A stretch of DNA of 64,000 nucleotides from Actinomycetota bacterium (lineage in GTDB: Bacteria > Actinomycetota > Nitriliruptoria > Nitriliruptorales > Nitriliruptoraceae): assembly GCA_019347575.1 (NCBI GenBank), contig JAHWKY010000005.1, positions 124,001 to 188,000 of the forward strand, in the 5' to 3' direction. How positions within the stretch are numbered: position 1 is the stretch's first letter; each line of letters opens with the position of its first letter. Made by a program: the position numbers and the translations under genes. Below, piece by piece: positions 31,679-36,809 of this stretch. The notes under the pieces are model-generated. The model searched no databases, was not told where the DNA came from, and saw only the letters and a program-made list of their open reading frames with translations.

Positions 31679-33028
31679 GTGGGTGCTCGACAGGTGGTGC
31701 GGGCGTACTACGTGCTCTCGGGCTTGTACACGCTCGCGGCGTCCCTGATCTGGGGCGTCAACACGCTCTTCCTGCTCGATGCAGGTCTGTCGATCGGTGA
31801 GGTGTTCGTGGCCAACGCGGTGTTCTCGGCCGGGATGGTCCTGTTCGAGATCCCCACCGGCGTCGTGGCGGACACGCTGGGTCGGCGAGTGTCGTACCTG
31901 TTCAGCGTCACGGTCCTGGCGGCGACGACCGGCCTGTACCTGCTGGTGTGGTCCATGGAGGGCGGCGTCGTCGCCTTCTCGATCGTGTCGCTGTTCATGG
32001 GTCTCGGCTTCACGTTCTTCAGCGGGGCGCTCGAAGCGTGGATGGTGGATGCGCTGAACCACGCGGGAGGAGGCGACCTCGACCAGGTGTTCGCTCGGGC
32101 CCAGCAGGTCACCGGCGGGGCGATGCTCGTCGGCACCGTCGGTGGTGGGTTCCTCGGCCAGGTCAGCCTGGGGCTGCCGTTCGGGTTGCGGATGGTCCTG
32201 CTGCTGGGGCTCATCGGCATCGCGACGCCGCTGATGGTCGAGCAGGGCTTCACGCCCCGACCGCTCACGCGTCGGGCCTTCCCCCGCGAGATGGTCGAGC
32301 AGGCACGGGTCGCCCTCGGTGCCGGCTGGGCGCAGCCGGGCCTGCGAGCGTTGATCCTGACCTCGGCGGTGGGCGGCGGCCTGATGTTCTGGGCCTTCTA
32401 CGCCGCGCAGCCGTACTTCCTGCTGCTGCTCGAGCGCGATGCAGTGTGGATCGTGGGCGTCCTCACCGCGGCTCTGTCCGTGGCGATGATGGGTGGGAAC
32501 CAGCTCGTGAAGTGGCTGTCGAAGCGTTGCCAACGGCGTACGACGCTGCTTCTAGGGGCGGCCGCGGTCATCGCCGCCGCCACCACGGTCATGGGCGCGA
32601 CCGATCACTTCGCGGTGGCGGCCGTTGCCTTCCTGGTCCTCGGTGCGGCGTTCGGTGTGACCCAGCCGGTCCACAGCGCGTACGTGCACACGGTCACCTC
32701 CAGCGAACACCGGGCCACGGTCGTCAGCTTCGACTCGATGGTCGGTTCGACGGGGAGCGTCGGGGGCCAGCTCGGCCTGGGCTGGGTGGCCGAGGCGCGT
32801 TCCCTCGCGGTCGGTTACATGGTTGCCGGGATCGCGTCGCTCCTCGCTCTACCGCTGCTCCTCCGCGTGCGCGCGGTGGGAGGCGCGGGGGACCGGATCG
32901 TCGGCCGCGACACGAGCGACGCATCGTGCGCCGCAGAGGGGCTGCCGGCGATCGCGCAGATCGAGCCGCAACACCCCGAGGTGGTCGAGACCATCGCCGG
33001 AGGCGGGAGGTCGTCAACCGACGGGTGA
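31679..33028 (+). CDS. MFS transporter
   Basis: A 449-residue protein. GTG 31679 is chosen because GGGGAG lies five bases upstream; another GTG at 31664 would add five residues. About 12 hydrophobic segments are visible, with the MFS signature GVVADTLGRRVSYLF after TM2. The LFEIPTGVVADTLGRR form is common in the multidrug/peptide-type MFS branch. The C-terminal ~50 residues after the last TM (VGGAGDRIVGRD onward) are hydrophilic, and the end overlaps the convergent kinase gene by 15 bp. Substrate unknown. Confidence 0.85.
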   Translation: MGARQVVRAYYVLSGLYTLAASLIWGVNTLFLLDAGLSIGEVFVANAVFSAGMVLFEIPTGVVADTLGRRVSYLFSVTVLAATTGLYLLVWSMEGGVVAFSIVSLFMGLGFTFFSGALEAWMVDALNHAGGGDLDQVFARAQQVTGGAMLVGTVGGGFLGQVSLGLPFGLRMVLLLGLIGIATPLMVEQGFTPRPLTRRAFPREMVEQARVALGAGWAQPGLRALILTSAVGGGLMFWAFYAAQPYFLLLLERDAVWIVGVLTAALSVAMMGGNQLVKWLSKRCQRRTTLLLGAAAVIAAATTVMGATDHFAVAAVAFLVLGAAFGVTQPVHSAYVHTVTSSEHRATVVSFDSMVGSTGSVGGQLGLGWVAEARSLAVGYMVAGIASLLALPLLLRVRAVGGAGDRIVGRDTSDASCAAEGLPAIAQIEPQHPEVVETIAGGGRSSTDG

Positions 33029-34441
33029 GGTTGGCGGCTGCGGCGTGGCGGCGGGTTCGGCTCGGCCGATCGGCAGGACCACCCTGAAGGTCGTGCGCCC
33101 CGGCTCGCTCGAGACGTCCAACTCGCCCCGGTGCTCCAGGACCACGATGCGGTGGCTGATCTGTAGGCCCAGCCCCGTTCCCTCGCCGACCGGCTTGGTC
33201 GTGTAGAACGCGTCGAAGATGCGGCTCGCCACCTCGGGCGACATGCCAGGTCCGTTGTCCCTGACCTCGACCACGACGTCCTCGCCTTGTCGATGCACGC
33301 GGAGTGTGAGCGTCGGGTCCTCGACACCGGCCTCCCGCATGGCGTAGCAGGCGTTGTCGATCAGGTTCGTCCACACCTGGTTGAGCTCGCTGGCGAACGC
33401 CGTGATGCTGGGCAGGTCCGGTTCGTACTCCCTCACCACGCGGACGTGCTTGACCTCGTGCGCGAGCATGGCGAGCGTGTCCTCGATCCCGCGGGTGACG
33501 TCGACCTCCTGGACCGGCGCCTGATCGAGGTGGCTGTGTGAGCGCAGTCCACCGACGAGCGTGGAGATGCGTCCCGCAGCGTCCGCCAGCGCCAGGGCGA
33601 GCGTGGTGAGGCGCAGCGTGACGACGAGGAACTCCAGCGCGTCCGCGGCGGCGTCCGGCTCGGCGGCGTCGAGCAGGGTGTGCAGCCGATCGGGTCCGGC
33701 GCCTGCATCGATCAGCGCCCCGACCCGATCGCCATCGCTCGGCAGTCCACGCGCATCGAGCCAGTCCGCGAGTGCGTCCTCGGCATCGCTGCGATCGAGT
33801 GCGCTCGGCGGTGTCGACGGGTCGGCCGCGAGTTCCCGAGCGAGCGCCACCGCACGACGCCGAGCTGCCGCGTCCGGGACCGGCTCGGTGGCGACCGCGA
33901 GGAGCGCTTCCATCGCCTCGGCGAGGCGGTCGGCGCCCCGGCGTACGGCCGCGGCCGGGTTGTTGAGCTCGTGGGCGACACCGGCGGTGAGCGTGCCGAT
34001 CTGGGCCATCCGCTCGATGTGGCGCAGTCGGTCGTGGTTCTCCCGCTCGCGTTGGAGCAGCGTCTCGAAGATCGCTCGCGACGCTCCCGGGCTCGAGGCG
34101 AGCAGCTCGTCGAGAGCACGCTTGGGGATGGCCAGCAGATCGGTCGCGGACTCGGCCCGAGCGGTCGCGCTCCGAGACCGCTCCTCGAGCAACGCCATCT
34201 CGCCGATGACGTCGTTGACGCCGCGACGGGCCAGGATGACCTGTCGCGGCCCGGTCTCCTTCAGGATCTCGAGGCCGCCGCTGACGATCACGTAGGCGCG
34301 ATCGCCAGCCTCCCCTTCCCGAAACAGCACCTCGCCTGGACCGAGGTGCACGTCCTCGACGCCCCGACAGATGCGTTCGAGGTCGTCGTCGTCGAGGCCG
34401 GCGAAGATGGGCACTCGCTTGAGGCGCTCGTCGGCAGCCAT
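33014..34441 (-). CDS. cNMP-binding-domain sensor histidine kinase
   Basis: A 475-residue protein with no transmembrane segment. Residues ~8-125 form a cyclic-nucleotide-binding fold (PIFAGLDDDDLERICRG, VLFREGEAGDRAYVIVSGGLEIL, NDVIGEMALLEERSRSATARA). The kinase core has the H-box GVAHELNNPAAAV, N-box NQVWTNLIDNACYAM, and G boxes DNGPGMS and GTGLGLQISHRIV. It lies one base after the response regulator-oxidoreductase gene, so the pair probably forms a two-component redox or stress circuit. The arginine pattern RSRSATARA is compatible with cNMP binding, but the ligand is not shown. Confidence 0.9.
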   Translation of the reverse strand: MAADERLKRVPIFAGLDDDDLERICRGVEDVHLGPGEVLFREGEAGDRAYVIVSGGLEILKETGPRQVILARRGVNDVIGEMALLEERSRSATARAESATDLLAIPKRALDELLASSPGASRAIFETLLQRERENHDRLRHIERMAQIGTLTAGVAHELNNPAAAVRRGADRLAEAMEALLAVATEPVPDAAARRRAVALARELAADPSTPPSALDRSDAEDALADWLDARGLPSDGDRVGALIDAGAGPDRLHTLLDAAEPDAAADALEFLVVTLRLTTLALALADAAGRISTLVGGLRSHSHLDQAPVQEVDVTRGIEDTLAMLAHEVKHVRVVREYEPDLPSITAFASELNQVWTNLIDNACYAMREAGVEDPTLTLRVHRQGEDVVVEVRDNGPGMSPEVASRIFDAFYTTKPVGEGTGLGLQISHRIVVLEHRGELDVSSEPGRTTFRVVLPIGRAEPAATPQPPTSPVG

Positions 34442-34442
34442 C

Positions 34443-36104
34443 TCAGACGGTCTCCAGGTAGCGATGCACGAACGAGACGCAGATAGCGCCCTGGCCGACG
34501 GCCGAGGCGACCCGTCGGACCGCCCCGTCGCGGACGTCGCCCGCCGCGAAGATGCCCGGGACGCTGGTCTCGAGTAGGTACGGATCGCGATCGAGCGGCC
34601 AGCCCTTCGGGCGGGAACCCTCGCGCATCAGGTCGGGGCCGGTCGGGATGAAGCCACGGTCGTTGGTCTCGACGAGGCCGGCGAGGAAGTCCGTGTGCGG
34701 GACGGCACCGACGAAGATGAAGAGCCCAGCCGCCTCCTCGCCCCAGCTACGGTCGCTCGCGCCGTCACGGAGGGTGATGCGTTCCAGGTGGTCGCCACCG
34801 TCCACCGCGGCGACCCCGGTGGAGGTGAGCACGCGGATGTTGGGCGTGGCCTCGACCTGGTCGACCAGGTACTGCGACATCTTGTCGCGGAGCGAGCCGC
34901 CACGTACCACGAGCGTGACCTCCGCGGCGTGGCGCGAGAACAGCATCGCGGCCTGTCCCGCGGAGTTGGCACCGCCCACCACGAAGACCTTCTCGCCCTC
35001 GTAGGACCGCGCCTCCGACCGGCTCACGCCGTAGTACACGCCCGCCCCGGTGAACCGTTCGTACCCCGGAACGTCGAGGCGGCGCACCTTCATCCCCGAC
35101 GCGATGAGCGCCGCGTGGCAGGCCACCTCGGAACCATCGGACAGGGTCAGTACGCGCGTCGTCCCCTCGACGCGTATCCCCGTCACTTCGGCCGCCGTCA
35201 GGATCTCGGCACCGAAACGTTCCGCCTGTGCGGTCGCGCGTCGGGCGAGGTCGGCGCCACTCACGCCACTGGGGAAGCCGAGGTAGTTCTCGATGAGCGA
35301 GGTGGTGCCAGCCTGACCTCCGGTTGCCTGGCGTTCGATCACGGCGACACGTAGACCCTCGGATGCCCCGTAGACGGCGGCTGCGAGACCGGCCGGCCCG
35401 GCGCCGACGACGACGAGATCGTAGAACGGGGCGCTGGCGGTCACGCGCAGTCCGACGCGCTCGGCGAGGACGCGCGGGTCGGGCCGCACCGCCACGGACC
35501 CGTCGGCGAAGAACACGAGCGGGAGCAGCGCTTCCTCCTCGTCCGCTGCCGCTAGCAGCGCCCGCGCTTCGGGATCGCGCTCGACGTCGAGGAACCGGTA
35601 GGGGAGGCGGTTGCGGGCGAGCCAGTCCTTGACGTCGTGCGTCGCGGCATCCCAGCGGGCGCCCACCACACGGATCCCGTCGAAGGGGGCGGGGCGGTTG
35701 GCCGCCCAGTCGTCGATCAGGTCGTCGATGACCGGGTAGAGGTTGTCCTCCGGGGGATGCCACGGCTTGAGGATGTAGTGGTCGAGACCGATCTCGTTGA
35801 TCGAGGTGATCGCGGCCTGCGTGTCCGCGTACGCGGTCAGCAGGATCTTGCGTGCCTCGGGGAAGTAGGGCGCCGCGGCGAGCAGGAAGTCGGTTCCCTG
35901 CATCCCGGGCATCTTCTGGTCGACGACGAACAGGGCGACGTCCTCACCCCGACGCGTCAGCTCCTCGACGGCCTCGAGCGCGGTCTCGCCCGATCCGGCG
36001 GCCACGATGCGGTAGCCGTCGGCGTAGCGTGACCGCAGATCGGCACGGACGGCGGCGAGGACAGGGGCGTCGTCATCGACCGCGATGATCGTGGGCTTGC
36101 CCAT
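34443..36104 (-). CDS. Response regulator fused to thioredoxin-reductase-like flavoprotein
   Basis: A 553-residue fusion. REC domain at ~1-125 (IIAVDDDAPVLAAVR, phosphoacceptor Asp in FVVDQKMPG, KILLTAY and LKPW). A Cys-less thioredoxin/glutaredoxin-like domain follows (~140-220). The flavoprotein part (~228-550) has FAD motif VVVGAGPAGLAAAVYGASEG, NADPH motif VVGGANSAGQAAMLFSRHA and the closing FAAGDVRDGAVRRVASAVGQGA. The redox-active CxxC of thioredoxin reductases is missing: the matching place reads GVYYGVSRSEARSYEG. It is therefore not a normal thioredoxin reductase; it may use NAD(P)H/FAD redox state as a signal. First gene of the pair with the kinase. Confidence 0.9.
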   Translation of the reverse strand: MGKPTIIAVDDDAPVLAAVRADLRSRYADGYRIVAAGSGETALEAVEELTRRGEDVALFVVDQKMPGMQGTDFLLAAAPYFPEARKILLTAYADTQAAITSINEIGLDHYILKPWHPPEDNLYPVIDDLIDDWAANRPAPFDGIRVVGARWDAATHDVKDWLARNRLPYRFLDVERDPEARALLAAADEEEALLPLVFFADGSVAVRPDPRVLAERVGLRVTASAPFYDLVVVGAGPAGLAAAVYGASEGLRVAVIERQATGGQAGTTSLIENYLGFPSGVSGADLARRATAQAERFGAEILTAAEVTGIRVEGTTRVLTLSDGSEVACHAALIASGMKVRRLDVPGYERFTGAGVYYGVSRSEARSYEGEKVFVVGGANSAGQAAMLFSRHAAEVTLVVRGGSLRDKMSQYLVDQVEATPNIRVLTSTGVAAVDGGDHLERITLRDGASDRSWGEEAAGLFIFVGAVPHTDFLAGLVETNDRGFIPTGPDLMREGSRPKGWPLDRDPYLLETSVPGIFAAGDVRDGAVRRVASAVGQGAICVSFVHRYLETV

Positions 36105-36125: not shown

Positions 36126-36809
36126 TCACCGTGTCGACGTGGCGATCTCGTCGATGAGCCCGTAGTCGAGCGCCTCCTGCGCCGTCATCCAGAAGTCACG
36201 GTCGGTGTCCTCGGCCACCTGCTCGACCGTCTTGCCGGTGCGCTCCGCGAGGATCTCGTTGAGGCGCTCGCGCAGGTAGACGATGTTCCTGGCCTGGATC
36301 TCGATATCGCGGGCGGTACCCCGCGCCCCGCCGAGCGGCTGGTGGATCATGATGCGCGCGTTCTCGCTGGCGGTGCGGGTGCCGGTCCCGGCAGCCAGGA
36401 TCACAGCCGCCGCGGACGCCGCCATGCCGATGCAGCGCGTGTTCACCTTCGCCTTCAGCATCTGCATCGTGTCGAAGAGGGCGAACAGCCCGCTGATGAT
36501 GCCGCCGGGGGAGTTCACGTAGAGGGTGATGTCCTCCTCGCCATCGGCGTCGAGTGCGAGCATCTCGGCGACCAGCGCGTCCGCGGTCGTGTCCTCGAGG
36601 GGGCCTTTCAGGAACAGGATGCGCTCCTCGAACAGCTTCGCGAACGCCTTGCTCTGGACTCCATCGAGCAGATCGTTGAGCTCGGACACGTCACGCTCCG
36701 GGTCGTGGTCTGGGACCGGAGCGAGATGGTACTCATCTTCGCGACGGCGCATCCGCGGCCCGTTGACGGGAGCGCTCATCCCAGGATCGGGGACCAGCGC
36801 TCCCTTCAC
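36126..36809 (-). CDS. clpP: ATP-dependent Clp protease proteolytic subunit (ClpP family)
   Basis: A 227-residue protein with the ClpP fold: ITLYVNSPGGIISGLFALFDTMQ, catalytic Ser132 in GMAASAAAV, His156 in RIMIHQPLGGA and Asp205 in DTDRDFWMTAQEALDYGLID. The long N-terminal stretch before the core (~55 residues) is unusual; an ATG at 36779 would shorten it by 10. No clpX or second clpP gene is adjacent, so this may be an extra ClpP paralogue rather than the housekeeping pair. It lies 21 bp upstream of the regulator-oxidoreductase gene in the same direction. Confidence 0.9.
   Translation of the reverse strand: MKGALVPDPGMSAPVNGPRMRRREDEYHLAPVPDHDPERDVSELNDLLDGVQSKAFAKLFEERILFLKGPLEDTTADALVAEMLALDADGEEDITLYVNSPGGIISGLFALFDTMQMLKAKVNTRCIGMAASAAAVILAAGTGTRTASENARIMIHQPLGGARGTARDIEIQARNIVYLRERLNEILAERTGKTVEQVAEDTDRDFWMTAQEALDYGLIDEIATSTR

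Follow-up and report, generated by a model that had tools for sequence, protein, structure and literature searches.

A response regulator fused to a CxxC-less thioredoxin-reductase-type flavoprotein is encoded beside a soluble histidine kinase in many bacteria

Flavoproteins with the fold of thioredoxin reductase occur in several arrangements. AhpF bears an N-terminal thioredoxin-type region, according to the relevant passage of PMC8945050. The TrxR-like FNRs, among them the cereus enzymes FNR1 and FNR2, and Bdr have the TrxR fold without its CxxC (passages of PMC8564101 and PMC10294844). Proteins that combine a receiver domain (REC) with a thioredoxin reductase are mentioned for archaeal metagenomes in a passage of PMC5847659. 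For the family analyzed here, cysteine-less reductases behind a receiver or a cNMP domain, no description was found in openly licensed PMC papers, and the available passages of PMC8945050, PMC9025218 and PMC13421787 contain nothing on it.

The fusion gene lies on a 64,000-nucleotide stretch of DNA from an Actinomycetota bacterium (the window), and its features are listed in Table 1. The domain order, the loss of both CxxC motifs, the cofactor motifs, the phosphorylation residues and the gene pairing are directly readable from the sequences.

Domain layout, homologues and the partner kinase

The open reading frame starts with ATG and encodes 553 amino acids. Pfam matched Response_reg at residues 6-118 (E = 1e-11) and Pyr_redox_2 at residues 228-539 (E = 4e-38). 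The predicted model of the protein had a mean pLDDT of 86.9. Pfam and a fold search, the latter covering mainly residues 223-553, both revealed the two-Rossmann fold for FAD and NAD(P)H. For residues 143-222 the top PDB sequence match was the glutaredoxin Rv3198.1 (2lqo, E = 0.005), and the Pfam Glutaredoxin model gave an E-value of 0.011, which falls short of the cut-off of that model. Pro195 of this domain occupies the cis-proline place and is a proline in 112 of 113 aligned proteins. A receiver, a Cys-less thioredoxin-like domain and an FAD/NAD(P)H module on one chain, as described in the first-pass annotation, were thus confirmed by Pfam, PDB match and fold.

Table 1: Positions of the fusion gene, the partner kinase gene and their features in the window
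Feature	Position	Strand	Basis
Response regulator / glutaredoxin-like / CxxC-less thioredoxin-reductase-type flavoprotein	34443..36104	-	112 full-length homologues
Receiver domain, residues 1-125	35730..36104	-	Pfam Response_reg and predicted model
Phosphoacceptor Asp62	35919..35921	-	D in 108/113
Cys-less glutaredoxin/mycoredoxin-like domain, residues 143-222	35439..35678	-	Model, PDB sequence match, Pfam
FAD domain, first half, residues 226-340	35085..35429	-	Pfam, fold search
NAD(P)-type domain, residues 341-465, motif NSAGQ 380-384	34710..35084	-	Pfam, fold search, alignment
Place of lost redox CxxC, residues 355-366 (GVYYGVSRSEAR)	35007..35042	-	Cys-free in 113/113
FAD domain, second half, residues 466-553	34446..34709	-	Pfam, fold search
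Family-specific insertion, residues 489-510, with Trp502, Arg506, Pro508	34575..34640	-	Alignment A1
Soluble histidine kinase, 475 aa, 1 bp downstream of fusion gene	33014..34441	-	Pfam, sequence, fold search
cNMP-binding domain of kinase, residues 1-130	34052..34441	-	Pfam cNMP_binding 31-116; fold match
Intact phosphate-binding cassette (IGEMALL..RSA) of kinase cNMP domain	34154..34207	-	Partner-kinase alignment
Phosphoacceptor His157 of kinase	33971..33973	-	H in 53/53 rows holding the column
Helical insertion of about 77 residues between the two DHp helices of kinase	33659..33889	-	Predicted model, spacing
Catalytic ATPase domain of kinase	33062..33520	-	Pfam HATPase_c, fold search

The 113 aligned proteins comprise the window protein, 61 full-length relatives of a first set (match from residue 30 or earlier to residue 545 or later, more than 250 bits) and 51 of a second set, which was drawn from two phyla, the one that includes Tengunoibacter and the one that includes a Bryobacteraceae genome. 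The first set leaves out the window locus itself (L001), L003, L005, and L106 and L110, which together are one split gene. The second leaves out the repeat genes L157-L160; 51 of its 60 loci are full length and the other nine are uncounted. A sequencing artefact or a chance fusion is ruled out by the 112 full-length homologues.

Counting any match, which takes in forms without a receiver, the family was found at 1e-60 in 16 of 61 genomes (the host's own and its relatives). At 1e-50 it was found in 92 of the 296 genomes of the phylum, some plain reductases included, and at 1e-80 in 42 of 251 genomes of the Tengunoibacter phylum and 46 of 247 of the phylum of the Bryobacteraceae genome. Receiver-type matches, which start at residue 25 or earlier and end at residue 517 or later, were counted by hand in 59/296, 22/251 and 31/247 genomes of these three phyla, respectively. 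Among plasmid records 83 held a match, 11 of them with a query coverage of 80% or more; these matches add Deinococcus, Nostoc, Gloeothece, Caballeronia, Paraburkholderia, Streptomyces, Tsukamurella and others. In the tree the Cys-less module was split from the plain reductases at full support (100*).

The partner was recognized by the Pfam models cNMP_binding and HATPase_c and by an H-box that reads H157-ELNNPAA; the HisKA model of Pfam gave no match in it. With a gap of 1 bp between the genes, this agrees with the earlier description of a soluble partner kinase with a cNMP-binding domain. Neither in the kinase (mean pLDDT of its model 77.6) nor in the 553-residue protein did Pfam match a membrane or DNA-binding domain. 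The cNMP domain superimposed on cAMP-bound Clr (7pzb) with a Z-score of 20.4 and 1.9 Å over 143 residues. Its IGEMALL..RSA segment fits the cNMP signature. By eye, this phosphate-binding cassette is intact in about 12 of 54 partner kinases, that of the window among them. A search of the window genome with PF00211, the class III cyclase family, gave 17 matches. Cyclic-nucleotide sensing had been offered as one role of the pair. Judged by the cassette, the window clade is the only one for which sensing of cAMP is plausible; cAMP as a general signal is ruled out, the cassette being degenerate in most partner kinases.

The insertion between the DHp helices is four-helical in the model, and the spacing in all 51 measurable partner kinases agrees with it (128-149 residues from His157 to Arg291). 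Kinases with this insertion are possibly a distinct subfamily.

Loss of both CxxC sites and the residues kept in their place

At the reductase CxxC site (residues 355-366) a cysteine was found in 0 of 113 full-length proteins, the window protein included. The glutaredoxin-site CxxC was likewise present in 0 of 113, and residues 146-156 hold no cysteine in the window protein or in any of the 61 first-set relatives. The first-pass annotation had envisaged a survey of the fusion with and without CxxC, and on these counts only the form without it was found. In the joint alignment of the first set, 56 of 57 plain reductase rows retained the CxxC; measured against them, the absence of cysteine from the reductase site in the aligned proteins is far from chance. 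A further reference is the Saccharibacteria protein L026 (4971-6188), a glutaredoxin-thioredoxin reductase fusion which has both CxxC motifs intact and groups with the reductases in the tree. It is a picture of what the Cys-less family lost.

The replacement of the redox disulfide by GVSRSEARSYE had been read correctly: these are residues 359-369, where canonical reductases have CATCDG. The consensus of the site in the window protein and its 61 full-length relatives is G-V-[YF]-Y-G-A-x-x-x-[ED]-A. Which residue replaces which cysteine hinges on the placement of a one-residue gap. By the aligner's choice of this gap, Cys135 of E. coli TrxR aligns to residue 360, which is mostly Ala, and Cys138 to residue 363, mostly Thr or Ser. 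The Asp that follows the CxxC aligns to residue 364, which is Glu in 94 and Asp in 14 of the 113 proteins.

A set of other residues is conserved. Tyr358, N380, S381, A382, Q384, Tyr412 and Leu413 occur in 113/113 proteins each and Arg401 in 112/113. The motifs GxGxxG, GGQ, NSA-Q and GD together with Tyr358, Arg401, Met409, Tyr412, Arg506 and Pro508 are found in 111-113 of 113. The last two residues belong to the 489-510 insertion, which is missing from the canonical reductases in alignment A1 (Trp502 in 101, Arg506 in 111 and Pro508 in 112 of 113). Because the cofactor motifs and the new residue set are nearly invariant, the family is constrained and not decaying. The conserved positions mark a putative maintained active centre of another kind than a dithiol.

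It is improbable that the reductase fold is a catalytically dead scaffold which binds structural FAD and serves dimerisation or docking only. Such a scaffold would agree with the loss of both thiol active sites and of most of HRRxxxR, but not with N380, S381, A382, Q384, R401 and Y412, which vary no more than the FAD motifs do (each kept in 112-113 of 113 proteins). Family-wide, only the first Arg (401) of HRRxxxR, the motif for the 2'-phosphate of NADPH, is kept; residue 402 is Gly or Ala, residue 406 is variable, and the window protein reads VRGGSLR at this place. Since the motif is mostly lost, the use of NAD(P)H is not assured.

Catalysis through other cysteines had been named beforehand as the finding that would overturn a thiol-free reading. 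The window protein has two cysteines only, Cys329 and Cys542. Disulfide reduction by such residues, as the product name of cNMP-fused relatives implies, could appeal to Cys368 in 65/113 proteins, to Cys329 in 53/113 and to a 329/332 CxxC in one Acidobacteriota group. We consider it very improbable, for none of these cysteines is family-wide, the window protein has Tyr368, the predicted model places Cys329 in a beta strand, and 6/113 proteins are free of cysteine in the aligned part. A CxxC somewhere else in the chain was counted in 16/113 proteins, most of which belong to the Acidobacteriota group (L197-L216) with the clade-specific motif at 329/332, in the predicted strand preceding the NAD(P) domain. 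Hidden catalytic cysteines as a common mechanism are thus ruled out, and at the level of the alignment a dithiol mechanism common to the family is excluded; clade-specific thiol roles would be compatible with it. The host's own TrxA and a CxxC-bearing TrxB were found on another contig. Therefore, thioredoxin reduction does not need the fusion protein.

Pairing of receiver and kinase

The window receiver carries the complete phosphorylation pentad D10, D11, D62, T90 and K113. Among the homologues, a same-strand kinase adjoined the fusion gene in 98/102 with a full pentad and in 0/10 without it. Within 600 bp the counts were 53/53 (first set) and 45/49 (second set) for full-pentad receivers, L126 being counted as paired, and 0/8 and 0/2 for the others. 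The gap between flavoprotein and kinase genes is mostly within about 100 bp across the intact-receiver homologues. As for the remaining intact receivers, L162 and L165 gave no kinase match in the roughly 1.5 kb flanking each side, and for L167 and L179 the only match was on the opposite strand; the query was the window's own kinase, so that very divergent kinases could escape detection. On the first-set tree receiver state and kinase presence changed three times each, with 1-3 independent pairs, which is not significant after correction. Because of these few independent events the pairing is a consistent pattern, not a significant test.

In annotated regions of the receiver type a kinase-type ATP-binding gene lies directly downstream in 5 of 6. 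In Nostoc edaphicum transposase and bestrophin genes stand between the fusion gene and the kinase-type gene. On the Caballeronia plasmid (L150, 3406-7984) kinase-type ATP-binding genes flank the fusion on both sides, as annotated.

The least probable reading is a vestigial receiver or an incidental pairing in which kinase and flavoprotein exchange no phosphate. It would draw on the ten homologues whose receivers are degenerate and whose genes have no kinase gene next to them; against it, 98 of the 102 intact receivers have a kinase gene beside them on the same strand, usually no more than about 100 bp away. These ten homologues still keep the reductase chassis, and therefore phosphorylation is not always needed. 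The earlier proposal of a kinase-receiver pair with neither a DNA-binding output nor dithiol chemistry was supported, the phosphorylation residues, the kinase histidine and the pairing being conserved.

A regulated flavin output and its relation to known systems

The same Cys-less chassis also occurs behind another regulatory domain. The Streptomyces plasmid protein L145 (4557-6302) combines cNMP_binding with Pyr_redox_2, and its gene neighbours are trxA, a UBP zinc finger gene and clpB. Both CxxC motifs are missing in the receiver-less proteins L021, L024, L025, L100, L101 and L145, the cNMP domain being checked in L145 only. Receiver-bearing and other N-terminal forms interleave in the Cys-less clade, where several forks are weakly supported. 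In our reading, the receiver and the cNMP domain are alternative controls of a single output. L145 bears the RefSeq name thioredoxin-disulfide reductase in spite of its cNMP fusion and missing CxxC, and for the cNMP-fused relatives, as for the whole family, this name is probably wrong.

Because the chassis also sits behind a cNMP-binding domain, the flavin module appears to be a regulated output rather than the redox sensor that had been suggested. In a hub of the latter kind the flavin, or else occupancy by NAD(P)H, would serve as an input that is integrated with receiver phosphorylation, and the hub would act through contacts with other proteins, feedback on the kinase being one possibility; this reading seems unlikely to us. 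The loss of both CxxC motifs and the lack of a known acceptor speak for it, and zf-UBP genes near some relatives could encode interaction partners. Against it, the chassis follows either of two regulatory domains, receiver or cNMP, on the C-terminal side, where an output usually lies, and the breadth of the new invariant set is suggestive of chemistry. zf-UBP genes were nearby in 5/11 and chaperone genes in 3/11 annotated regions of relatives; the window genome gave no match to PF02148 as a zf-UBP partner.

On the plasmids of L145, L153 and L156 the Cys-less reductases adjoin genes for ClpB/Clp ATPase, DnaJ/CbpM, Hsp20, TrxA and UBP zinc-finger proteins, neighbourhoods which are like a protein-quality-control island. 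In the window a ClpP gene (36126-36809) ends 21 bp upstream of the fusion gene, and the two may lie on one transcript. ClpP as a conserved partner was rejected: besides the window, a match was found among the loci examined only at L040, which is not of the receiver type.

To our knowledge, few two-component systems act directly on redox chemistry. The reading we prefer, to which we give about even chances, is a cytosolic two-component system that gates a non-disulfide NAD(P)H-flavin module as its output. In this scheme the kinase would autophosphorylate on His157, and the phosphate would pass to Asp62 of the receiver; in the window clade, cAMP or a related ligand bound to the cNMP domain probably tunes the kinase. 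Phosphorylation may then shift the seat of the receiver on the chassis, gating domain motion or access of an acceptor. The chassis itself is expected to bind FAD and NAD(P)H. Without the CxxC of reductase and glutaredoxin it would relay no electrons through thiols, and the reduced flavin would react directly with a non-disulfide acceptor such as a small molecule, a quinone, an oxygen species or a partner protein. The neighbour genes name no candidate acceptor. More tentatively, we propose a widespread thiol-free redox output module on two interchangeable inputs, receiver or cNMP domain, in which either a phosphorelay or a second messenger would directly switch the NAD(P)H-flavin reaction with a new acceptor.

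The recurrence of the kinase and the Cys-less flavoprotein in many bacteria suggests that phosphorylation may be a direct means by which cells control a flavin redox module free of thiols. Were NAD(P)H turnover by the module to be controlled in this way, signalling would be linked to the cellular redox state without transcription, and this possible link would span Actinobacteria, Chloroflexota, Acidobacteriota, Deinococcus, Cyanobacteria and Burkholderiales.

With TrxB and AhpF the fusion protein shares the fold (Z-scores near 35 and rmsd values of 1.9-3.0 Å across 303-308 residues for the five best matches) and the FAD and dinucleotide motifs. It differs from them in having neither the redox CxxC nor an active CxxC in the glutaredoxin-like domain, and in its receiver, the 489-510 insertion and another signature of the dinucleotide domain. 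The missing CxxC is a likeness to the TrxR-like FNRs and Bdr, whereas in sequence the protein is nearer to TrxR (best E 4e-46) than to FNR (best E 2e-20). Moreover, HRRxxxR is mostly lost in the fusion family. A C-terminal extension stacking on FAD is a feature of the TrxR-like FNRs and Bdr; the modelled chain of the fusion protein ends with a TrxR-type helix (residues 532-552), and no such extension is evident in alignment A1. The proteins named cyclic nucleotide-binding domain-containing thioredoxin-disulfide reductase at NCBI have the same chassis of Cys-less glutaredoxin-like domain and reductase, but their own cNMP domain replaces the receiver, and no kinase is adjacent in three regions so named. 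The REC-thioredoxin reductases of PMC5847659 are alike in architecture, and the passage on them gives no CxxC status or partner. Those proteins are archaeal, whereas the Cys-less receiver family is bacterial in every named record.
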